Position numbers and translations under genes: made by a program. The notes beneath the pieces are model-generated. The model was not told the DNA's origin. It saw only the letters and a program-made list of their open reading frames with translations, and ran no database searches. This document shows positions 3,569 to 34,047 of a stretch of DNA of 34,047 nucleotides, piece after piece. Position 1 is the stretch's first letter. Each line of letters begins with the position of its first letter. This DNA comes from a virus. Where the stretch lies: the IMG/VR virus record IMGVR_UViG_3300041403_000072, positions 1-34,047 of that record, one strand, 5' to 3'.

Positions 3569-4105
3569 CTAGCCTTTGAGAAATAATTTTAGGTTCCGAT
3601 TAAGGTCTTCCATAGAACGAAGGGAAATATAGGGCAGGGTGCCTGCCTGCGTTCGCTCCGTCATGCCGTTACCGTGGGTCGTACCCGGAACCACTTCTTC
3701 ACAGTTCGCCCAGAACTGCCCCTTACTGATAAACCCCATCAGGTCGCAGCAGGCCGCTCGATCCCTAACCATCAGAACTGACGTAAAGACGTAGAAGGTA
3801 GTCTCCTGCCCCTTCTGGCTCATGGGAACCTGCGCCGCGTAGTCGCTCTTAGGGAGTACGGTGCGGTTCTTCGTCTTAACGTCAAAGGTTAGGCCCTGAA
3901 CGCTAAAGTCCGCGTTGTAGCTGTCCTTCCCGATGTAGTCGAAGGGTATCTCATGATCCGTTAGCCACCTTCCGAACACCGCCTCCCCGATATAGCCCAC
4001 ATACTGCCCAGCCCCGCCCTTGAGAAGCGTCGTCCCGTTAAAGGCTGCGTTCGAGCAGTTCGCTAGAGCCCATTTGTGGGCGTTGTCAGGGATCGGGTAG
4101 CGCAT
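3569..4105 (-). CDS. Probable PD-(D/E)XK nuclease-fold protein
   Basis: This 178-residue protein shows a PD-(D/E)XK-like signature: Glu41 in YIGEAVFGRWL, Asp66 in YNADF, and DVK at 75-77 (Asp75, Lys77), with a strand between as expected. Families with this arrangement include Holliday-junction resolvases and small phage or restriction endonucleases. The length suits a single-domain nuclease. It lies directly upstream of the SF2 helicase and downstream of the noncoding region 4106-4484. AAGGAAACGT precedes the ATG. It could process recombination intermediates or degrade host DNA; the assignment rests on motif pattern alone. Confidence 0.65.
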   Translation of the reverse strand: MRYPIPDNAHKWALANCSNAAFNGTTLLKGGAGQYVGYIGEAVFGRWLTDHEIPFDYIGKDSYNADFSVQGLTFDVKTKNRTVLPKSDYAAQVPMSQKGQETTFYVFTSVLMVRDRAACCDLMGFISKGQFWANCEEVVPGTTHGNGMTERTQAGTLPYISLRSMEDLNRNLKLFLKG

Positions 4106-4550: not shown

Positions 4551-4611
4551 AGCTGGTGGCTCTCCCTCCTCTCTCCTGCCAGCTTTGGGCCCCTTCGGGG
4601 GCCCTTTTTTT
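4551..4611 (+). ncRNA. Putative anti-Shine-Dalgarno small RNA
   Basis: About 61 bases lie between a near-consensus promoter and an intrinsic terminator. The first hairpin pairs AGCTGG (4551-4556) with CCAGCT (4579-4584) and extends by two G-U pairs and a G-C pair, leaving the loop CTCTCCCTCCTCTCTC (4560-4575). This loop is pure pyrimidine and contains CCUCC, the complement of GGAGG, like the 3' tail of 16S rRNA. The second hairpin is the terminator. No reading frame fits within the transcript. The known concept is a trans-acting RNA with an anti-SD loop, as in the cuckoo family of proteobacterial RNAs. Loop segments match SD regions at 8824-8832 and 1227-1235 over nine bases, and at the starts of the genes at 5406 and 33866 over eight. 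The target choice is inference, because purine-rich SDs match easily. Confidence 0.7.
4587..4611 (+). terminator. Intrinsic terminator with UUCG loop
   Basis: GGGCCCC (4587-4593), loop TTCG, GGGGCCC (4598-4604) and seven T residues (4605-4611) form a textbook rho-independent terminator on the plus strand. On the minus strand no U-tract follows. It ends the small RNA and stops antisense transcription from entering the HNH gene at 4631-5035. Confidence 0.92.
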
Positions 4612-4630
4612 GGCTGTACGCTCTGCGTAC

Positions 4631-5035
4631 TTAATTCCACGAAAGGAAGTCGATGGCCTCGCCCGTCCCCCACTCCTTCCACTGTTCCCGGTAGTGCTTG
4701 GCGATCTCTTTCTTTTCAGCGACCCGCACGCGATATATCTCGTTTTTCTTTTCCATAAGCCGTTCCATGTGCCCTTCCCCTAAGTAGGAGGCGAGCCATG
4801 AGATGAAGTCCAGAGGGTTCTCGGTGAAATATCGGTGATGGTAGTAGCAAAGGGAGACGGCGTTATCTAAAGACCAGCGGGTGCTGGCGTTCCTACGGCC
4901 TATGATGTGGGCACAATGTAGGCCCTGATCAGGACCGGGGAACTCCTTGCCGCAGAACTCGCAAGTGAAGTTAGCCTTAGCCCTTACACACAGTGAAAAG
5001 TAATGGTCCGCTGCATCGCGTTTAATCCCTGCCAT
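4631..5035 (-). CDS. HNH-type zinc endonuclease, NinG-like
   Basis: This 134-residue protein has a zinc pair Cys25-x2-Cys28 (counted from the ATG at 5035), an HCAH motif about 15 residues later, a conserved Asn in SLDNAVSLC, and a final Cys-Tyr-Tyr-His-His, which together form an HNH/beta-beta-alpha-metal nuclease core. The C-terminal half is helical and charged. The layout recalls phage NinG/Rap-type recombination endonucleases, which cut branched DNA, and the NinB-like gene nearby supports that reading. A homing or packaging HNH cannot be excluded. I chose the second ATG because GAGGA sits too close to the first one at 5041. The stop adjoins the palindrome GTACGC-TCT-GCGTAC (4617-4631). Confidence 0.8.
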   Translation of the reverse strand: MAGIKRDAADHYFSLCVRAKANFTCEFCGKEFPGPDQGLHCAHIIGRRNASTRWSLDNAVSLCYYHHRYFTENPLDFISWLASYLGEGHMERLMEKKNEIYRVRVAEKKEIAKHYREQWKEWGTGEAIDFLSWN

Positions 5036-5201
5036 CGTCATTCCTCGGCACTGCGGTTAAAGCTGGTCGGTCGTCTAATAGCTGGCGGAACATCTTACGC
5101 GCTCTAGCTAAAAGGACAGGATCGCCAGAAATGATGGTCAGGGACATAGCCACCTCCCCATCCTGATCGGGGTCGTCCTCCTGCCATTCGATCCTATTCA
5201 T
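5022..5201 (-). CDS. Small acidic hypothetical protein
   Basis: The gap between two larger genes holds an intact 59-residue frame: an acidic N-terminus (QEDDPDQDGE) followed by a helical segment around LLARARKMFRQLL. Its ATG overlaps the upstream stop by eight bases and its end overlaps the HNH gene, the same coupling seen across this genome. CAGGATGGGGAGG before an internal ATG (Met19) could drive a shorter form. No family is recognised. Confidence 0.6.
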   Translation of the reverse strand: MNRIEWQEDDPDQDGEVAMSLTIISGDPVLLARARKMFRQLLDDRPALTAVPRNDDGRD

Positions 5202-5406
5202 GCTGGGCCCTCTTTAGGAGCGTGTTGATCGCACGGTTAAGGTCGCCATCATTGTAGATATAAAACACGTCAGAGAGCGTTTTAGCGCCCTCCTCGACGG
5301 TGATCCGATAGTAGTCTTGACCGTATCCGGGTGCCCACTCGCACTGCACCTGCTGATAGGCAGTCACCTTTTTGAGCGTTCCCGCCATAGGCCCAAAGTT
5401 ATTCAT
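5194..5406 (-). CDS. Small hypothetical protein
   Basis: This 70-residue protein has a Tyr-rich centre (APGYGQDYYRITVEEG) that looks like beta strands, then an Asp-rich turn and a C-terminal helix (LNRAINTLLKRA). No family is recognised. It overlaps the metallophosphoesterase gene end by eight bases. GAGGAGAGA lies before the ATG, eight bases of which are complementary to the loop of the small RNA at 4551-4611. Confidence 0.7.
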   Translation of the reverse strand: MNNFGPMAGTLKKVTAYQQVQCEWAPGYGQDYYRITVEEGAKTLSDVFYIYNDGDLNRAINTLLKRAQHE

Positions 5407-8980: not shown

Positions 8981-9694
8981 CTAATCATTCCTGACTAGAA
9001 TCCCTTCCACGAAGATCGAAACGATGTTGTCCCCCGAGGAGGATTTAGCCTCAAACTGGAAGTCAGTCTTTTCCCCGATCCTGAAAGGCACCTGCCGGTC
9101 GAAGGACTGCTGGTCGGTCTGCCAAGTCGCCTCTGCCACCCTTAAACAGCGCCCTGTCGAGGTCTTCGTGACGTTCCGGTAGGTGATGTACTTGTTCGGG
9201 TTCACTGATCCTGACGTCAGGTCGATCCGGTACAGATACAGCGAATGCCCGACGGGTACGGTGTAGTTACAGGCTTGAGTTAACCCCTTTCCAATAGAGA
9301 TATAGCCGAGAACGGTGCCGTCATTGGTTATCGTAATGTTCCCGGCGTTTTCTCCAGAAAGAATCACCGCCTGATTTACCCGCAGAAACGCCTGAGCCGT
9401 CGTAACAGCCGATGTACCATTAAGCGTAACCACCTCTTGAATGGGCCAATAGTTCGCGTCAAGGCCGATGATAAGTAGCCCCATCGTGTCCGAAGCGCTA
9501 GAACTGACAGCAGACAGGCTAAGAGCAGAGGCAGGGTAAGAATAAAGTCCGCCATAATCCCAGAGGGTTTCATAGGTCGTCCCCAAGACAGGGTTCACCC
9601 CGAAGATGTTCACCGCTTGAGCGTCGTCGAAATGGCCCGCAGATACCGCTAGCAGGCCGTTCGGCATCCGTACGATGTCGTTAATCAGACTCAT
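8981..9694 (-). CDS. Probable virion or host-recognition protein
   Basis: This 237-residue protein is rich in Ser, Thr, Asn and beta-type segments (GLDANYWPIQEVVTLNG, SAVTTAQAFLRVNQAV, SLYLYRIDL) and ends with a strand-rich domain. I recall similar proteins as structural components of marine phages, but the exact role is unknown; decoration or tail-associated are possibilities. It lies after the lysis genes and before the recombination block and overlaps the upstream gene by 14 bases, with GAGG as ribosome-binding site. No signal peptide, membrane segment or catalytic motif is visible. Confidence 0.7.
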   Translation of the reverse strand: MSLINDIVRMPNGLLAVSAGHFDDAQAVNIFGVNPVLGTTYETLWDYGGLYSYPASALSLSAVSSSASDTMGLLIIGLDANYWPIQEVVTLNGTSAVTTAQAFLRVNQAVILSGENAGNITITNDGTVLGYISIGKGLTQACNYTVPVGHSLYLYRIDLTSGSVNPNKYITYRNVTKTSTGRCLRVAEATWQTDQQSFDRQVPFRIGEKTDFQFEAKSSSGDNIVSIFVEGILVRND

Positions 9695-13321: not shown

Positions 13322-13666
13322 TCAAACCTCCACCTGCGGCCAGTCGTCCGCGATTAGATTGGGCCAGTTTACATTATTCGGTAGATCGCGTAGAGCCTGC
13401 CGGTAGGCTGCCCACGCCTCTCGATCCACTGGAGCATCAGGGAGTTGGGTCCAGTCCGAGGCCGTAAGGAGTTGGTTCCGGTACTCCCGATTGGATACCG
13501 CCCTCTCCGCCTCCAGAGCGTCCGTAGGCGCCTCGGAAAGCTCTACCCCATCCCATGCTAGCCGGAATGGATTAAGCCCCTCTGGAATCAATACAGAGCC
13601 TTCTGGGGGCTCCTGCCCCTGATAGATCGAGATGATCTCGTCGCCGTCAATGACCGCCCACTTCAT
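13322..13666 (-). CDS. Putative tail-fibre assembly chaperone
   Basis: This 114-residue protein contains NREYRNQLLTASDWTQLPDAPVDREAW and then AAYRQALRDLP, a motif shared by many phage tail assembly chaperones (the R-x-x-L-L-x-x-x-D-W-T-Q-x-x-D segment). The N-terminal half is small and beta-type. It lies between the J-like protein and the tail fibre, exactly where such a chaperone is expected. The ATG overlaps the upstream stop. It probably helps trimerise or attach the fibre; it is not itself expected in the virion. Confidence 0.85.
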   Translation of the reverse strand: MKWAVIDGDEIISIYQGQEPPEGSVLIPEGLNPFRLAWDGVELSEAPTDALEAERAVSNREYRNQLLTASDWTQLPDAPVDREAWAAYRQALRDLPNNVNWPNLIADDWPQVEV

Positions 13667-16600
13667 CGCTTGAGCCTCACAGCCTGAATGTATGTTCCCG
13701 GCGCTCTAAATGATCGCGGGAAGGTGCCGTTCGTATTCGTCGCAGCTTGCAGATAGAACTTCCAATCGCTGTTCGTCGTGTCGATAGCATATTGGAAGGT
13801 GCTGGCGAATAGAGCTTGCTGAATCTGGGCCCAGTTGGTCGTGTCGTAGGATACGTCCCCGATGAAGTAATGATAGAGCTTGTCCGTGTTACTCACCCGA
13901 ACGTATAGGCGAATGGCAATGTAAGGCGCCCCGGATGCTTCAGGGTGTGCCCGCAGGCCCCATGAAATCTCCGCGATGTCGCCATCATCGAAGGACTGCC
14001 CCGTAAGACTGGCAAGGGTTATCCAACTGGTCGAGTAGTTGGTGTTAGACGCCATATCAGCCCGAGCGGTGTTAGTGATAGCCCGAGTGCCTACTTGCGT
14101 CGTCCCGACTCCACCGTTGGCGATGATTAGATTGCTGCCTGACGTATCAAGCGTCACCCCATCAATGGCGAGTCGGTTAGCGTTGATCGTCCCAGCCACC
14201 ACTAAGTCGCCGTTGATCTCTACGTCGCTCGTAAACTGAGCTTTCCCTCCTGAAATCTGGAAGGGAACAATCGGGGTGTCCGCCGTAGAGGTCGGGTCCA
14301 CCACGCTGAACTTGTCAGCAATGATTACAAATTCACTGAAGGGCGTGGCGCCTGCCGTGGTAGACAATAGCCCGAAGCCCGAGATGCGATTGTTCGCGTC
14401 GATCTTGACCGTGTAGTTCGCCTCGATCCCGTTGATGCTAGATGCGTTCGTGGAGATCGAAGTGGTGTTAGAGCCCACCGTCGTGGTCAGGGTCGTTACG
14501 TCCGACGCGATGGACGTTATAGAGCCCTCTGCGGACGTTACGCGGGTGTCGAGCCCGCTAATGGCCGTGGCGTTGGTCGTGACGTTACTGTTCGTGGTCG
14601 AGAGCGACGATTGTAGGCTTGTGATGTCGCTAGCCTGACTCGTGATGCTGCCCTCTGCCGCCGTGACGCGGGTGTCTAATCCAGAGATCGCCGTAGCGTT
14701 CCCGGTTACGTTACTGTTCGTCGTAGTCAGTGACGATTCGAGCGTGCTGATATCGCTAGCGTTGACCGTGATGCTGCTCTCCGTCGCCGTTACCCGCGTG
14801 CTTAGAGAGCTAATGGCCGTAGCGTTAGCCGCGACCCCGGTCGTCGGATCGTTCACCGTAGACTCTAGCGTGCTGATGTCCGATGCGTTGGAGGAGATGC
14901 TCCCCTCAGCAGTCGTGACCCGCGTGTCGAGCCCGGAGATGGCGCTAGCGTTGGTGCTGACGTTGCTATTGGTCGTCGTTAGCGAAGACTGTAGGGTCGT
15001 TATGTCTGAGGCGTTAGAGACTATCGAGCCTTCCGCCGCCGTTACCCTCGTGCCCAAGGAGCTGATCGCGCTGGCGTTGGTCGATATGTCGCCTTCAGCC
15101 GTCGTTAGGCCGCTCTGGAGGGTCGTTACGTCTGCGGAGATGGACGTTATGCTGCTCTCGGTCGTTTCTACTCTGGTCGTCAGAGAGGAGAGGCCAGAGG
15201 CGTTCGCAGATACCCCAGTGGTCGGATCGTCGACCGTCGATTCTAGCGACGTAATCCGGGAGGCTTGAGATACTAGCCCCGACTCAGTTTCGGTCGTCCG
15301 GGAGGACAGCGTATCGATCGCAGAACTGGTCGCGCTCGTAACATCATCGAGCGTTTCCAAATCTAATAACGCGTCGTCCTCTAGCTCTAAGGGGTCGGGC
15401 CCAGCTTCGTCCTCTACCCTCTGGAGGAAGTCTAAGCGGGTCGTAAGAATCGTGGTGCTTTGCGCCTCACTCGTTACCAGTCCTTCGACAGTAGTCACGC
15501 GGGTGTCCAGCCCGCTGATCGCCGTCGAGTTGGCGCTGATGTCAGTCTGAGCCGTGCTGATGGCGCCCGCGTTGGTCACGATGTCCGCCTGAGCCGTGCT
15601 TAGGTCGCTGCTCAGGGTCGTGATGTCGGACGAGTTGATGGTGATGTTGCCTTCAGCAGACGTCACCCGCGTCGTCAAAGCGGTGATCGCAGATGCGTTA
15701 GTCGTGATGTCGGATTCAGCCGAGCTAAGGTCAGACTGTAGACTTGTGATGTCCGTAGCCTGACTGCTGATCGAGCCCTCAGCCGAAGTCACTCGGGTGT
15801 CGAGTGCGCTGATTGCGCTGGCGTTCGTGCTGACGTTCGTGTTCGTCGTGGACAGGTTGTTCGTCAGCGTCGTGATGCTGGTGCTGTTCGACGTTATGTC
15901 AGTTTCGGTCTGCGTCACCCGTGACTGTAGGACCGTTACCGCGTTAGACGTCGTGGAGAAGTTGCCGCCTTCATCTTCCAGTGCCGTCTCAAGGTCCGTG
16001 ATGTCCGCGCTGATTGCCGTTATGGAGTTCCCTTGACTCACCACCGTGGTGTCGAGCGTCGAGATCGCGCTTGCATTCGCCGTGATGGCGCTAGAGTTCG
16101 TAGCTATGTCCGCCGTATTGGTGTCGATGTCACCTTCGGCAGTCGTCATGCGGGTCTGAAGGGCCGTTACCGCCGCCGCGTTTTGCCCTATGCGGGGGTC
16201 TAGCAGGGACACCCACGCGGTCCCGTTCCAGTAATATGGGGCGTTGTTATCGTCCGTATCGTACCAACGAGAGCCGTCAGGGATGGGGTTAGGGATACCG
16301 CCGACGCCAGCCACAGGCTCGGAGTCCTGAAGGTAAACATCTCCCACCCCTGCCGTAACGTCACCGATGAGGCTGGTCAGGTTCTGGATGTTCCCTTCAA
16401 GCAGGTCGATGTTGCCCTGAATCGTGCTGTTCGACTCATTAACAAATATGGCAACGTCGCCAAGGTTCTGTATGTCGACCTCAAGCCCCGTTTCAAGATT
16501 GAGGATCGTTTCACCCTCAAGCTCAACCCGGAGGATGTCCTGCTCAAGGATGGAGTTCAGAACATCGGTCTGCCCGAGAACAGTGGTCCCGTCAGTGTCG

Positions 16601-18585
16601 TAGAGGTCCGTGCCGACCGTAGCGCCAACGGTAGCGTTGTCTTCCGGCCTCCCGACCCCCGTGACCTGAGGCCAGTCCGCCGTATCAGCAAAGCTCGCAT
16701 CGTCATTAAGCTGGGACGTAGCGATCTGCCCAGCCGTAGCCGTTATGCTTGAAGTATCGGAGTCAGGGTCCCTAATTGACTCCCTACCGTCTACGTCAAC
16801 AGCCCGTACCCAATAATAGCGAGCCGTCCCACGGGTAAGCTCATGGCGGAAGGTGTTCCCACGGGTTCGCCCAATTTCACTAGCCCCAGACCATGCGGAG
16901 GTCGCAGAGGCGTAGATCACTACTTCGTCGTAGCCAGAGGGCCGAGGCGGAGGGTCCCATTCCAATAAAACGGCTTCTTCCTCGGACGTAGCTTGTAAGC
17001 CAGAGGGCGCCGATACAGCTTGGTCTGCGAATGAGACAACGCCAGCAAGGGTACGCGTCGAGTATTCCGCTAAGAGCGGGTCCGCGTAGGCAGAGGAGGA
17101 ATCCTCTTGTAGCTCAAGGTTAAACCCGGAATCAGGGGAGAAGGACCAGCCGTCTACGCGAAAGACTTTGTTAGACCAGCTTAGCTCGTCGATGCTTAGC
17201 TGAATCCGGTCCCCTACAGCTACCTTCATCGCCTTCCAGTTAAAAGGAACGATGCACCGTAGCTGCTGGTTATTTAGGTTTAGCTGCTTGAACGCGATCC
17301 GCTGCGCCATGTACTCGTCATTGGTAAACGGTAAGCGGATTTCTTGGGACAGGGTTTGACCACCGTCCCGCGTATTCTTGTAGCTGGTGTTCTCTACAGG
17401 GATGAACTCGGTTGCCACATAGTCCGAATCGGGATCAATGAAGGTTCCCCGAATCTTGTTATAGCGCTGGGTCCGCGTCCTTTCGGGCTGAATCTGAACG
17501 TCCCCGATAACGTCATCACCCGTAAAGGTATAGGTGGGCGCCTCATAGGCCGCTGCGCGGATTCGGAACTTACCGCCAGACCATGTAATCTGACCGGACA
17601 TGGAGGAAAGAAGCTGCTTAATGTTCTCAGCGTAGGTTTCGCCAGTCGATAACGCACCGTTACAGGTAAAGCGCTTCTGGTTCCCATCAGGGGTGGTTAC
17701 GAGCGTGTCGCAGGCGTTAGCCGCAGCGAACACTAAATCCCAGTCGATCTCGTTATAGGTGATCCCTTCCGCACCCATCCCAAGGCGGGCGTCAAAGAGG
17801 TAGTCGGCCAGACATAGAGCAGGATTGTCTGACCATTCCCATGTCGTAGGATCAGCTAAACGGTGGGCCCCTGATCCGCCGGTCTGAGTTGAGTCCTTAC
17901 GGGGGTCGTAAACCTTCTTCCCTTTGACCACAGCCCGGATGTTCTGAGGCGCACCCTGCGCCCAAACACCCTCGCCCGTAGCCGTACCTAACTCAAACGC
18001 GGAGACAATGTACGCAACGCCTCTCCCATCATAGTCGGAGGTCCAGTCACTGAATGCAGCTGCAAGTTCAGTAACGTGGGTCTGCGTATTCGTCCCGAGC
18101 CGACGGTAGAAGTTCGTGACTTCATTCCCACCGATAGGGCCGTATTTGCCTGACGTAACCCCACCCGTTCCGGCCCAATCAATGGCAGAGGATAGGATTT
18201 TGTCCCCGTCTAGCCAGATTTCCGTAATGTCGTCTATCTCGTGCTGGCAAAGGCTAATGACGGTCCAGAGGGTTGAGTTATCGCTAGTTCCCGGAGTCGG
18301 GGCCGTGTTCGTATAGACCACGGGGCCAGAGGTTCTAGCTGTTCCATAGATGATCCGGGCAGGCTCTACCGCACTTCTAACCGTGATATCACGAGGAGCC
18401 CGAGAGCCCTCTTTTCTAGCATCCGCTTCCGCTTTCTTCGTGCTATACGATGTATAAGCGATAGACGAGAGCGCAGCGCCAGCCGCAAGCGTAGCAGCGC
18501 CGCCCGGAACTGCCGCAGTAGCAGCACTAATCGCAGCGCCCACACCCTTAACAAATGCTGCTATCGCTGGTCCAGCCTGTGGCAT
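13663..18585 (-). CDS. Lambda-J-like tail tip / host-specificity protein with long coiled-coil repeats
   Basis: At 1640 residues this is the largest protein. The N-terminal 45 residues are Ala/Gly-rich and hydrophobic. Residues about 60-560 form the J-type hub (ARIIYGTARTSGPVVY; WTVISLCQHEIDDITEIWLDG; GQITWSGGKFRIRAAAYEAP), a phage-tail_3-like module. An FN3-like domain follows (about 575-665; SGLQATSEEEAVLLEWDPPP). Residues about 800-1410 hold roughly twelve 42-residue repeats around RVTSAEGSI and TNASAISAL. The C-terminal ~200 residues contain FSVVDPT, a DUF1983-like module, and a beta-rich tip. It should close the tail tube and bind the receptor. GGAG precedes the ATG; the gene abuts the DUF6950 gene. 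Confidence 0.95.
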   Translation of the reverse strand: MPQAGPAIAAFVKGVGAAISAATAAVPGGAATLAAGAALSSIAYTSYSTKKAEADARKEGSRAPRDITVRSAVEPARIIYGTARTSGPVVYTNTAPTPGTSDNSTLWTVISLCQHEIDDITEIWLDGDKILSSAIDWAGTGGVTSGKYGPIGGNEVTNFYRRLGTNTQTHVTELAAAFSDWTSDYDGRGVAYIVSAFELGTATGEGVWAQGAPQNIRAVVKGKKVYDPRKDSTQTGGSGAHRLADPTTWEWSDNPALCLADYLFDARLGMGAEGITYNEIDWDLVFAAANACDTLVTTPDGNQKRFTCNGALSTGETYAENIKQLLSSMSGQITWSGGKFRIRAAAYEAPTYTFTGDDVIGDVQIQPERTRTQRYNKIRGTFIDPDSDYVATEFIPVENTSYKNTRDGGQTLSQEIRLPFTNDEYMAQRIAFKQLNLNNQQLRCIVPFNWKAMKVAVGDRIQLSIDELSWSNKVFRVDGWSFSPDSGFNLELQEDSSSAYADPLLAEYSTRTLAGVVSFADQAVSAPSGLQATSEEEAVLLEWDPPPRPSGYDEVVIYASATSAWSGASEIGRTRGNTFRHELTRGTARYYWVRAVDVDGRESIRDPDSDTSSITATAGQIATSQLNDDASFADTADWPQVTGVGRPEDNATVGATVGTDLYDTDGTTVLGQTDVLNSILEQDILRVELEGETILNLETGLEVDIQNLGDVAIFVNESNSTIQGNIDLLEGNIQNLTSLIGDVTAGVGDVYLQDSEPVAGVGGIPNPIPDGSRWYDTDDNNAPYYWNGTAWVSLLDPRIGQNAAAVTALQTRMTTAEGDIDTNTADIATNSSAITANASAISTLDTTVVSQGNSITAISADITDLETALEDEGGNFSTTSNAVTVLQSRVTQTETDITSNSTSITTLTNNLSTTNTNVSTNASAISALDTRVTSAEGSISSQATDITSLQSDLSSAESDITTNASAITALTTRVTSAEGNITINSSDITTLSSDLSTAQADIVTNAGAISTAQTDISANSTAISGLDTRVTTVEGLVTSEAQSTTILTTRLDFLQRVEDEAGPDPLELEDDALLDLETLDDVTSATSSAIDTLSSRTTETESGLVSQASRITSLESTVDDPTTGVSANASGLSSLTTRVETTESSITSISADVTTLQSGLTTAEGDISTNASAISSLGTRVTAAEGSIVSNASDITTLQSSLTTTNSNVSTNASAISGLDTRVTTAEGSISSNASDISTLESTVNDPTTGVAANATAISSLSTRVTATESSITVNASDISTLESSLTTTNSNVTGNATAISGLDTRVTAAEGSITSQASDITSLQSSLSTTNSNVTTNATAISGLDTRVTSAEGSITSIASDVTTLTTTVGSNTTSISTNASSINGIEANYTVKIDANNRISGFGLLSTTAGATPFSEFVIIADKFSVVDPTSTADTPIVPFQISGGKAQFTSDVEINGDLVVAGTINANRLAIDGVTLDTSGSNLIIANGGVGTTQVGTRAITNTARADMASNTNYSTSWITLASLTGQSFDDGDIAEISWGLRAHPEASGAPYIAIRLYVRVSNTDKLYHYFIGDVSYDTTNWAQIQQALFASTFQYAIDTTNSDWKFYLQAATNTNGTFPRSFRAPGTYIQAVRLKR
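14440..16170 (-). repeat. About twelve imperfect 126-bp repeats encoding 42-residue coiled-coil units
   Basis: Within the J-like gene, units such as ALDTRVTSAEGSISSQ...SLQSDLSSAES recur every 42 residues, that is six heptads and 126 bases. Hydrophobic residues fall at a and d positions (I, L, V), with Thr/Ser/Asn elsewhere, as in trimeric fibre shafts. The repeats have diverged at the DNA level. One insertion (about residues 1058-1100, acidic ELEDDALLDLETLDD) interrupts the series. Confidence 0.85.
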
Positions 18586-30197: not shown

Positions 30198-31427
30198 TCA
30201 TACCGCAAACTGGAAGCGAACATTAGCCACGGGTTTGACCACCGGGAACTCGTACGCGATTGGGTACGTCGTAGCGTCGTTCTGGTGATCGTTCCCCGAG
30301 GACTTATCAGGTTCGCCGTTCTTATACGTCTGCTGCTCTAAACAGTCCGCCGTATTCTTACACTTCTTGGCGTTAATTTTCACCGTCCCGTTTTCCAGCG
30401 CAGCGTTCATCGCGAGTATGCGATCCTTAACGGCTGGGTTCCGCTTATTCACCCTCACATAGAACCCCGCTTGTTCTAATAGGGCTATGTCAGACACTGA
30501 GGCGTTTACCGTCTTGCGGGCCGAGCCCGAGGCATCAGGGTAGATATAGATCGGGTGCCCCTCGTATCTACTTTGGATAATCCGAATCATCTCCGGGGTG
30601 TCGAACATACGCGAAAGCTCGTCCACCGCGTGCCAGCCGTCCTCTCTTTGAACGTAGATCGTGGCGCACTGCTGAGTGACGTTGAAGTCACAGCCGATAT
30701 ATAGGGGCTCTCGTGGCTGAACCTCCTCCTGAGAGTCACACCGAACCCGGTCATAGGAGGCGTACACGGTCCCGCTCGTCAGGTTCACGAACTGGCCATT
30801 CAGGTAGGCCGCTAGAAGGTGTTCCGGGTAGGCTGCCTTAAGGGAGTCTATATACCCGTCAGGGAGATAGGGGTTCGACTCCGTGGGGGCTTGAATGATC
30901 TCGTAGCCCTCTTTCGGGTCCTTCTTCCACATCTCATAGACGAAGCGGAAGCCTTCAGGGGTTGTCGTTACCCCAATCGTATTAGGCCCCGCCTTCTTCT
31001 GCCGGTTCCGGGCCATGATCTGCCGCCACGCATAGGCCGCGTCGTCCCTCTTGAGGGTGTCTAGCTCGTCTATGTCCGCGTCTGCGTGTTCGTAGCCTAC
31101 GATTCTCTGGGGGTTATCCATCGTCCGAAAGAAGATAGACCCATAGCCCTCGATCTCGATCTGATTAACCGGGCTCTTTTGGAGCCGGTACGGGATGCCA
31201 AGCTGCTCTAGCATTGCCTCGAAGCGCGGCCACGCGATCATCCTAATCAGGTCGTAGGTCGGGGCATAGAACCCCCGGTTGGTCTTCGGGTTATTTATCA
31301 GCCCGAAGATAGACCGAAAGATAGCCGCTTCAGTCTTGCCCGCTCCGAAGCCAGCGATGAACGCCGGGAAGGGCGCCTGTGATGTTATATAGCGGAACTG
31401 GGGAGCCGTCGGGCGAATCTCAGGCAT
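30198..31427 (-). CDS. terL: Large terminase subunit
   Basis: Counting from the ATG at 31427 (MPEIRPTAPQ; 409 residues) the ATPase domain shows Walker A GFGAGKT (26-32) and Walker B DIDELD (118-123), and the nuclease domain has Asp247 in CDFNV, Asp298 in YPDASG and Asp384 in NDAT, the expected metal-binding triad. The enzyme pumps DNA into the prohead and cuts it. An upstream ATG (MARTGKTS, 31472) has a possible AAGGA and cannot be excluded; 31427 overlaps the TerS stop by eight bases as is usual in this genome. Confidence 0.95.
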   Translation of the reverse strand: MPEIRPTAPQFRYITSQAPFPAFIAGFGAGKTEAAIFRSIFGLINNPKTNRGFYAPTYDLIRMIAWPRFEAMLEQLGIPYRLQKSPVNQIEIEGYGSIFFRTMDNPQRIVGYEHADADIDELDTLKRDDAAYAWRQIMARNRQKKAGPNTIGVTTTPEGFRFVYEMWKKDPKEGYEIIQAPTESNPYLPDGYIDSLKAAYPEHLLAAYLNGQFVNLTSGTVYASYDRVRCDSQEEVQPREPLYIGCDFNVTQQCATIYVQREDGWHAVDELSRMFDTPEMIRIIQSRYEGHPIYIYPDASGSARKTVNASVSDIALLEQAGFYVRVNKRNPAVKDRILAMNAALENGTVKINAKKCKNTADCLEQQTYKNGEPDKSSGNDHQNDATTYPIAYEFPVVKPVANVRFQFAV

Positions 31428-31767
31428 TCGGGTTAACAATATTGATATTGATGTCTTGCCGGTCCGAGCCATTCTCCGGGGCGTCCTTCTGCCCAAGAAT
31501 GTTCTTCCCGAGCCATACGAGCATCGTAGTGTTCCCGTCTAGCGCTGACTCAAACTGCTTACGGCGTAAGGACATTTTCCCGCTCGCCGCTGCCTTTTTA
31601 TAGTAGTCCGCAAAACCGCAGCTATACTCCTCCTGTACCCGCCTTTGGAGCGTGTCGTAGGAGACACCTAAGATGCTCGCTATCTCCTCTCCCGTGCAAT
31701 GGATATTGCATAGGCGCTGTACGAGGGGCCAGTCAATTTCTATTTTTGGTCTACCTGTTTTTGCCAT
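31420..31767 (-). CDS. terS: Small terminase subunit
   Basis: This 115-residue protein starts MAKTGRPKIEIDWPLVQRLCNIHCTGEEIASILGVSYDTLQRRVQ, a short basic start and an HTH at about 27-44, as in many small terminases. The following helices (KMSLRRKQFESALDGNTTMLVWLGKNILGQ) fit the oligomerisation region. It recognises viral DNA for packaging. GGGGG lies eight bases before the ATG. It is directly downstream of the TET/JBP-like gene, so modification state and packaging recognition could be linked. Confidence 0.92.
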   Translation of the reverse strand: MAKTGRPKIEIDWPLVQRLCNIHCTGEEIASILGVSYDTLQRRVQEEYSCGFADYYKKAAASGKMSLRRKQFESALDGNTTMLVWLGKNILGQKDAPENGSDRQDININIVNPNA

Positions 31768-31768
31768 T

Positions 31769-32605
31769 TTAGGCCCCCTGCTTTACCCGTGGGTCTATCG
31801 CTTGGGCCCGCTTTCTTGCCCGCTCTGTTGCTTTCTGCTTTGAGCGTTTAAGCTCCTCCGCTTTAGGTAAACAGTGCTGCAAGTTTGAAAGGGTGTAGAA
31901 CACTACGCTTGAACGCTCCCAGTTCTTAGCCTTTGGGATGATAGGCGTTACCCCGTGGGGAATGCTTACCCCATCAACGACAACTAAAGCGCCGTGCGAT
32001 TGCGCCAGTGCCAGCTTGAACTGAGGCATTACGAAATAGCCTCCGTCAATATTTTTCTTAGTTATTAAGACGTTACTGTACACGCCGCCATAGTTAGCCG
32101 CGTCAACATGGTAGCCGATAGCAAAGTTTTTATTGACGTTGACGGTTGTAAATGGGGTGCCTGTCTTTTTCCAATCATCGTGGATACCGCCTACAAACTT
32201 CTGAAAGTTAGCAGCAACTTCGGGGAAGCTGTTCTGGTATACGCCCCATAGGTACTTCCCCACCTTTGAAAGGCCAGCGAACACCTCTGGCTGCGCTCTG
32301 GTTTGCGCGGAAAACCTGCAATAGTCCTCCCGAACCGCGATTCTCGGCAATGCGCCATAAACCGCTGACATTTGGTTTACCCCAAGGGTGCGTGACGCCT
32401 TTGAAACTTTGGCTTTCGCGGTACAGGCATTCAGAATTGCGAGCGTATCTTCTGGCAGCACCCTATAGGCACAGACCAGCCTGCCGTTATGGTAGATATC
32501 GGCAGGTTCGTCAATTAAGGTGTCGTAATGGCTTGGCGGGGGCGTTTTGCCCTTCCAGTGCTTGTAGTCGAACCCGTAATCTACCGCCTCTATACGCCTT
32601 ACCAC
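31769..32605 (-). CDS. TET/JBP-like Fe(II)/2-oxoglutarate dioxygenase, putative DNA base hydroxylase
   Basis: This 278-residue protein shows the core of the TET/JBP family: H-x-D in GYHVDAANYGG (His166, Asp168, with Asn171), then GGYFVMPQFKLAL, then DGVSIPHGVTPI with the second metal His217, and ERSSVVFY with Arg231 to bind 2-oxoglutarate. The HGVTP...R-x-S-x-V-F-Y ending parallels the HATTP...RISLVFY ending of TET enzymes. Known members oxidise the methyl group of thymine (JBP) or 5-methylcytosine (TET). No cytosine methyltransferase or glycosyltransferase is visible here. The GTG start overlaps the end of the ParB-like gene, with AAAGGA upstream; terminase follows. The basic C-terminal tail may bind DNA. 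The substrate is inference. Confidence 0.85.
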   Translation of the reverse strand: MVRRIEAVDYGFDYKHWKGKTPPPSHYDTLIDEPADIYHNGRLVCAYRVLPEDTLAILNACTAKAKVSKASRTLGVNQMSAVYGALPRIAVREDYCRFSAQTRAQPEVFAGLSKVGKYLWGVYQNSFPEVAANFQKFVGGIHDDWKKTGTPFTTVNVNKNFAIGYHVDAANYGGVYSNVLITKKNIDGGYFVMPQFKLALAQSHGALVVVDGVSIPHGVTPIIPKAKNWERSSVVFYTLSNLQHCLPKAEELKRSKQKATERARKRAQAIDPRVKQGA

Positions 32606-33195
32606 TTGCTGGCTTCCTTTAGCACTAAATCAAAAACCAGCGTCGAATAGTCCTCTGCCCCGGTATGCGCCAGCCCTGCGTCCAGCTTTTCGACAATCAC
32701 CTCTAATTCTTCTTGGCTGTAGGCAAGGCGCAGAATCTTTGTGTCCCCGTTAAGAAAGTTCTCCAGCTTTTCTTCTGGCGTTAGCCCAAGCGGTACGTCT
32801 TCAGGGTCTACTAGCCGTAAAACCTCGTCGCTTAACCCAAGTAGGGTAGTGTCAAAGTCAAGCTCTGCTAGCCTCTCTACTTCCCCTTTAAGGGTATCGA
32901 TATCCCAGCCTGCATTCATGGCAAGGGAGTTGTCAGCGATGACGTAAGCGCGTTTCTGGGCCTCTGACAGTCCGGTGAGGGTAATCGTAGGGACTTCTTC
33001 CATGCCGAGAGCGTTCGCGGCTTCGAGCCTACCATGCCCAGCAATGATGCCGCCTGCTTCGTCGATCAGGATTGGATTCGTAAACCCGAACTCTTTAATG
33101 GATTCTACGATCTGACCGACTTGTTCCTTACTATGCGTGCGGCTGTTGTTCTCGTACGGCGTAAGGTCTACCGCCCTGCGGTATTCGATCTGCAT
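32599..33195 (-). CDS. Stand-alone ParB/Srx-fold protein, partner of the dioxygenase
   Basis: This 198-residue protein has an N-terminal ParB-type nuclease-fold domain: NNSRTHSKEQ (16-25), FTNPILID and IIAGHGRLEAAN with GHGR at 53-56, then VIADN. This version is usually fused to phage DNA methyltransferases; here no methylase domain follows, and the C-terminal ~90 residues are acidic and helical. It is not a partition ParB: there is no HTH or ParA. Overlap with the TET/JBP-like gene suggests a joint pathway of DNA modification, with this protein providing DNA binding or a nucleotide-dependent step. A hairpin at 33200-33220 may mask its SD. Confidence 0.9.
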   Translation of the reverse strand: MQIEYRRAVDLTPYENNSRTHSKEQVGQIVESIKEFGFTNPILIDEAGGIIAGHGRLEAANALGMEEVPTITLTGLSEAQKRAYVIADNSLAMNAGWDIDTLKGEVERLAELDFDTTLLGLSDEVLRLVDPEDVPLGLTPEEKLENFLNGDTKILRLAYSQEELEVIVEKLDAGLAHTGAEDYSTLVFDLVLKEASKW

Positions 33196-33866: not shown

Positions 33867-33957
33867 GGTTCTCTCCCTTTGAACTATTAAGCAATCCTTA
33901 CACGTTCCGCATTTTTCTGCGGACAGTTTGCGGTGATTGACGCACTTTTCTGCGCAA
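33867..33957 (-). promoter_or_regulatory. Intergenic region with two hairpins before the packaging cluster
   Basis: On the minus strand, GTGATTG-CGCA pairs with TGCG-T-CAATCAC (one bulged T; loop GAAAAG) just after the end of the last gene, followed by TCCGCA-GAAAAA-TGCGGA (33907-33924 region). Both loops are GA-rich and the stems share GCGCA/CCGCA. Neither has a U-tract. Promoter elements for the downstream genes should lie here, but I find no good sigma70 pair, so the initiation signal is uncertain. The same sequence occurs at bases 1-38. Confidence 0.5.
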
Positions 33958-34047
33958 TCACTCTAACCCCGTTGCTTTCCGAATAGCCGCCGCAAAACTC
34001 TCCATCGCGGGCTTTTCTGGGTCAACGCCAATTCCGTACAGCATCCA
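33922..34047. repeat. Terminal direct repeat, right copy
   Basis: This is the exact second copy of bases 3-128 and marks the overlap of a circular genome assembly. It should be removed from gene counts. Confidence 0.93.
33958..34047 (-). CDS. 3' part of the HTPGPW-type gene, repeated by circular overlap
   Basis: The last 90 bases repeat the final 30 codons (including stop) of the gene at 39-323 and run off the window edge. It is the same gene seen twice, not a third paralogue or a broken gene. Confidence 0.9.
   Translation of the reverse strand, partial: WMLYGIGVDPEKPAMESFAAAIRKATGLE

Follow-up and report, generated by a model that had tools for sequence, protein, structure and literature searches.

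Can a TET/JBP-like dioxygenase and a stand-alone ParB-fold protein, encoded by two overlapping genes just before the terminase, form a DNA modification system by themselves, and on which base would it act? The question is raised by IMG/VR virus record IMGVR_UViG_3300041403_000072, whose positions 1 to 34,047 we analysed (hereafter the window, meaning the whole stretch of 34,047 nucleotides). A sequence-only reading had suggested a minimal system, directed at thymine or at host-made 5-methylcytosine (5mC). We consider it fairly probable that the pair is a two-gene module for post-replicative, TET/JBP-type oxidation of pyrimidines in phage DNA, with ParB as the partner. Other phages are already known to have the ParB-TET arrangement, and the window holds a stripped-down, divergent version of it; what is new here is the divergent clade, the absence of known partners in closed genomes and a TET-specific ParB module.

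A closed phage genome with a conserved gene pair

The window has a set of head and tail genes of the siphovirus type and a lambdoid-like early region, with a helicase, a DnaG-type zinc finger, a YqaJ exonuclease, a Sak-like annealing protein, a single-strand binding protein, NinB, NinG and Cro. Its large terminase subunit, TerL, is about 55% identical to that of gammaproteobacterial phages. The tail-tip position is taken by a 1640-aa protein with long coiled-coil regions (13,663-18,585). In the order of transcription, replication genes are followed by the ParB-TET pair and then by the terminase.

Bases 3-128 are identical to bases 33,922-34,047: this exact direct repeat of 126 bp at the contig ends implies a circular map of about 33.9 kb. 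The genome is most likely complete, circularly permuted or terminally redundant. A scan of viral contigs for an extension of its right end returned none, as expected of a closed genome. The repeat also rules out that the window is a fragment, with a methylase hidden in a missing part. Closure of the contig is absent from the description of the record.

The four genes of the locus lie on the minus strand. Those of ParB (32,599-33,195; 198 aa) and of the dioxygenase (31,769-32,605; 278 aa, GTG start) have exactly the limits proposed earlier, and their overlap and position before terS were also described correctly: they share 7 nt (GTGGTAA), and the ATG of terS (31,767) comes 1 nt past the dioxygenase stop. 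A ribosome-site-like stretch, AAAGGAAG, lies upstream of the dioxygenase GTG, and this layout makes translational coupling from ParB to the dioxygenase plausible. The probable small terminase subunit, terS (31,420-31,767), matches PHROG 309/606 weakly and is syntenic in relatives; terL (30,198-31,496; Pfam Terminase_6N and 6C) is next. No informative promoter, terminator or tRNA was found near the pair.

One further contig (L002) is identical to the window over its length, and four others (L010-L013) encode a dioxygenase 63-78% identical to that of the window. At this identity synonymous sites are saturated, which argues for purifying selection on the protein. L010, L012 and L013 have these genes in the same order as the window, ParB-TET-terS-terL, with a ParB-TET overlap of 7-8 nt. 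Compared with the window, these three have ParB 60-68% and TET 63-75% identical, whereas TerL is only about 30% identical; the pair has thus been inherited or transferred as one unit. The L012 contig (31.8 kb) closes on itself as well, through a 250-bp overlap with 249 identical positions. A scan of genome contigs yielded one distant locus.

Family and fold of the dioxygenase

The dioxygenase scores 48.2 bits on the Tet_JBP profile (PF12851; cut-off 34.9 bits, E=9.3e-13). It has the metal triad H166-x-D168...H217 and the 2-oxoglutarate anchor R231 expected of an Fe(II)/2-oxoglutarate enzyme; all four residues, named at these positions in the sequence-only reading, are invariant in 44/44 homologues. 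The motifs HGVTP (217-221) and RSSVVFY (231-237) are likewise where they had been seen, but they are not C-terminal endings: another 41 residues follow, mostly helical.

An AlphaFold2 model, built from the 44 homologues, has a mean pLDDT of 90.9. Ranked by Z, its top 16 matches in the PDB all belong to the TET family (Z 17.8-18.9), with CMD1 at 18.9, NgTET1 at 18.3, TET2 at 18.2 and CcTET at 17.9; TET-family enzymes come first in Foldseek as well as in VIA-align. TET2 and NgTET1 are also found by sequence with the profile of the dioxygenase family (E 0.005-0.016). The fold and catalytic residues are thus common to the window enzyme and to these eukaryotic proteins, from which it differs in its low identity (10-18%) and in having no Cys-rich domain, as its 278 residues include only four cysteines. 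Profile and predicted fold, the two comparisons suggested as a check on the original family assignment, both return TET/JBP and bear it out.

That the target is not DNA, the enzyme being a nucleotide, RNA or protein hydroxylase, is very improbable. The double-stranded beta-helix fold is common to many hydroxylases, and FTO/AlkB homologues match the model too, with Z up to 14.8; however, the TET family stands clearly above all other 2-oxoglutarate enzymes in the structural ranking, and related loci have DNA-modification genes as neighbours. The profile and the same ranking led us to reject an amino-acid hydroxylase.

As a side observation, phrog_6059 and Mycobacterium phage proteins labelled queuine tRNA-ribosyltransferase match the dioxygenase along its length; that label looks wrong.

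The ParB protein and its TET-linked module

The product of the upstream gene matches ParB_N (PF02195) with 27.1 bits (cut-off 26.3) and PHROG 620 with E=8e-53. Its model (pLDDT 88) has a ParB/Srx fold and resembles CTP-binding ParB (ParB-CDP), Noc, KorB, PadC and sulfiredoxin (Srx). Pfam found ParB_N alone, with no HTH domain, so this is not a canonical partition ParB; no ParA occurs among the annotated ORFs of the window.

We surveyed 83 ParBs, namely the best 80 of the matches listed and three isolates, a sample of N-domain relatives rather than a random one. Among these matches, 46/83 are fusions, each of the 46 to an N6/N4 methylase, and 37/83 stand alone. For 35 of the stand-alone proteins the next gene was scanned: among the matches listed it encodes Mom (11), the TET-associated glycosyltransferase TAGT (8), a C5-methylase (3), an N6/N4 methylase (3), GNAT-ABC (3), an FkbM methyltransferase (1) or a different Tet_JBP protein (1/35). 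ParB thus recurs in phages as a partner of DNA-modifying enzymes. In about 60 phage loci, that of cultured Microbacterium phage Terij included, a place next to TET is the rule for it, and among 80 further TET loci most have a ParB gene that overlaps TET or lies ahead of it. The stand-alone form had been singled out as notable; with 37/83 sampled relatives among the matches listed standing alone, and ParB-TET pairs common, the survey rules out that it is unusual.

The N-domain of the window ParB scores 142-212 bits (phmmer) against ParBs of the methylase/Mom type and 0-43 bits against other TET-locus ParBs, and the likeness is reversed in its C-terminal 55-62 residues, which are closer to TET-linked ParBs: hhalign aligns the C-terminus to theirs with E=7.6e-7, versus 0.19 to the rest. 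The corresponding helical module covers residues 137-198 (32,602-32,787, minus strand). By iterated profile search it is present in 62/62 TET-linked ParBs (the window and its identical copy are counted in, as are near-identical contigs) and in 0/37 other stand-alone ParBs among the matches listed. The model predicts helices at 140-148, 161-178 and 183-195, after a flexible linker of low confidence. On the simplest reading of this co-occurrence, the module is a candidate for docking the dioxygenase.

Five loci (L122, L123, L153, L160 and L164), counted among the 37 without the module, have a second TET subfamily nearby and a window-type ParB N-domain with a different C-terminus; in 4/5 of them another gene separates ParB from TET.

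ParB and TET may instead be mere neighbours, with TET acting alone and ParB serving in packaging or regulation close to the terminase. ParB-like genes do precede terminase genes with varied neighbours, and in Vibrio phage Rostov 7 ParB is followed by a gene without a modification domain and then by terL. We nevertheless hold this to be improbable, given a gene overlap kept across divergent terminases, a C-terminal module restricted to TET-linked ParBs in our sample, and about 30/35 genes after stand-alone ParBs (among the matches listed) that match modification-related families. ParB and TET distances are strongly correlated (Mantel r 0.91), which mirrors their shared phylogeny and is no proof of interaction.

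Partner enzymes and the probable substrate

Profiles for C5-methylase (PF00145), N6/N4 methylase (PF01555), D12 methylase (PF02086), thymidylate synthase (PF00303), ADDT (PF18724) and TAGT (PF20691) had no match in the window or its four relatives, and the annotated ORFs of the window include no P-loop kinase. The description of the system as minimal holds for these methylase, thymidylate synthase, ADDT and TAGT profiles in two closed genomes, those of the window and L012; since the genome closes on itself, the absence is firmer than a reading of the sequence could make it. Window ORFs without assigned function, such as 3569-4105 and 8981-9694, could encode further modifying enzymes.

TET hypermodification operons of phages were reportedly predicted by Iyer, Aravind and colleagues in 2013. 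In those of Rhodococcus phage Tonitrus and of Arthrobacter phages Klevey and Altadena, TET has a ParB nearby, as in the window; Nonlabens phage P12024L has a TET operon too, but no ParB was detected near its TET. All of these operons add ADDT/aGPT-Pplase, a kinase-like gene, a glycosyltransferase or a deacetylase, whereas none of the tested added families is in the window. Closest in layout is Microbacterium phage Terij (NC_073367), where an overlapping ParB-TET pair precedes the terminase (gp1-gp2-(gp3)-terminase) and where, again as in the window, C5-methylase, ADDT and TAGT were not found in the complete 55.7-kb record. Its TET is, however, only about 26% identical to that of the window and belongs to the other major TET clade, in a different host group. 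ParB-methylase fusions (PHROG 498) and the ParB-Mom pair of Psychrobacter phage Y8A share the N-domain at the bit scores given above and the place before the terminase genes, but in them an N6/N4 methylase or Mom takes the place of TET, and their ParB lacks the TET-linked module.

Which base is oxidised can be approached through the wider TET family. ADDT, which belongs to thymidine hypermodification pathways, occurs in 16/50 of its records and TAGT in 15/50; a C5-methylase occurs in only 3/60 distinct records. Both ADDT and TAGT are partners that work on hydroxymethyl bases. Elsewhere in the family, P-loop proteins and FAD-dependent oxidoreductases also lie between TET and TerL. With ADDT and TAGT frequent and C5-methylase rare, thymine is favoured over phage-made 5mC, and this family context leans towards thymine as the substrate. 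We put the chance that thymine is the substrate and 5-hydroxymethyluracil (5hmU) the product at roughly even. Two findings count against it: the closest solved structures are enzymes acting on 5mC, and TAGT, not the thymine-type ADDT, predominates in the nearest sister clade. In the TET tree the window clade is sister (support 98) to the clade with P12024L, most members of which have TAGT, and stands apart from a large ADDT/TAGT clade.

The other candidate substrate, 5mC, is in our view somewhat less probable. The enzyme would then oxidise host-made 5mC to 5hmC, 5fC or 5caC at host methylation sites, masking phage DNA from methyl-dependent nucleases. Besides the ranking of 5mC oxidases as top structural matches, a C5-methylase in a few members of the wider family speaks for this, as does N171, which fits the TET2 pattern HxDxxN; the 5mC itself could come from host methylases of the Dcm type. 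The base-contacting site points the other way. In the family-profile alignment R231, S233 and Y237 match TET2 R1896, S1898 and Y1902, and L239 falls on H1904, which, like NgTET1 H297, is the base-contacting histidine. This hallmark of 5mC-specific TET enzymes is absent from the window dioxygenase, since position 239 is occupied in the 44 homologues by Leu (37), Arg (4) or Lys (3). The lack of a C5-methylase in both closed genomes of the clade, its rarity in the family and the thymidine-directed ADDT partners elsewhere also weigh against 5mC.

On the thymine reading, the TET/JBP protein would act on replicated phage DNA and, with Fe(II), O2 and 2-oxoglutarate, hydroxylate a pyrimidine at its 5-methyl group, most likely turning thymine into 5hmU. 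ParB would be its partner: its N-terminal ParB/Srx domain may serve as the adaptor that in other phages goes with methylases, Mom or glycosyltransferases, while docking of the dioxygenase probably falls to the TET-specific module at the C-terminus. The genome encodes no known transferase for a later step, so the hydroxymethyl (or more oxidised) base would be left undecorated. Phages M6, ViI and phiW-14 have a 5hmdU DNA kinase and alkylamine transferases that work on 5hmU (PMC6449724). The modified base would most likely protect against restriction.

A bolder picture, which we offer tentatively, is that this otherwise ordinary genome of about 34 kb holds a complete two-protein system: a ParB-type clamp, possibly NTP-dependent, would carry TET through the docking module and convert thymine to 5hmU after replication, without a precursor pathway or further decoration, and the ParB domain would more generally be a carrier that many base-modifying enzymes of phages can use in turn. 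Should thymine be the substrate, phages would have a post-replicative route to 5hmU, unlike the usual precursor route, and the dioxygenase would be a simple enzyme to write 5hmU into DNA. Phages with ParB and TET only are the simplest setting for learning what ParB does beside base-modifying enzymes, and the TET-linked module allows a direct test of interaction. ParB is found beside CmoX carboxymethyltransferases too, where its role is stated to be unknown and its part beside base-modifying enzymes is called open (PMC12783734).

The ParB survey also brought up loci of other kinds. In six (L119, L103, L108, L109, L127 and L136) a TAGT-like gene directly follows a stand-alone ParB, with no TET in the retrieved stretch. 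Pseudoalteromonas phage SL25 (L090, 4983-6586) has two overlapping unannotated genes for a ParB and an ABC-ATPase/GNAT fusion, the latter predicted to be of the DNA acyl-modification type. In Psychrobacter phage vB_PmaS_Y8A (L091), the gene at 4596-5249, annotated as hypothetical, overlaps that of a stand-alone ParB and belongs to the Mom family (PF25680, E=2e-55); in the published annotation another gene is the only Mom entry, and the ParB is termed a partition protein (PMC10434257).
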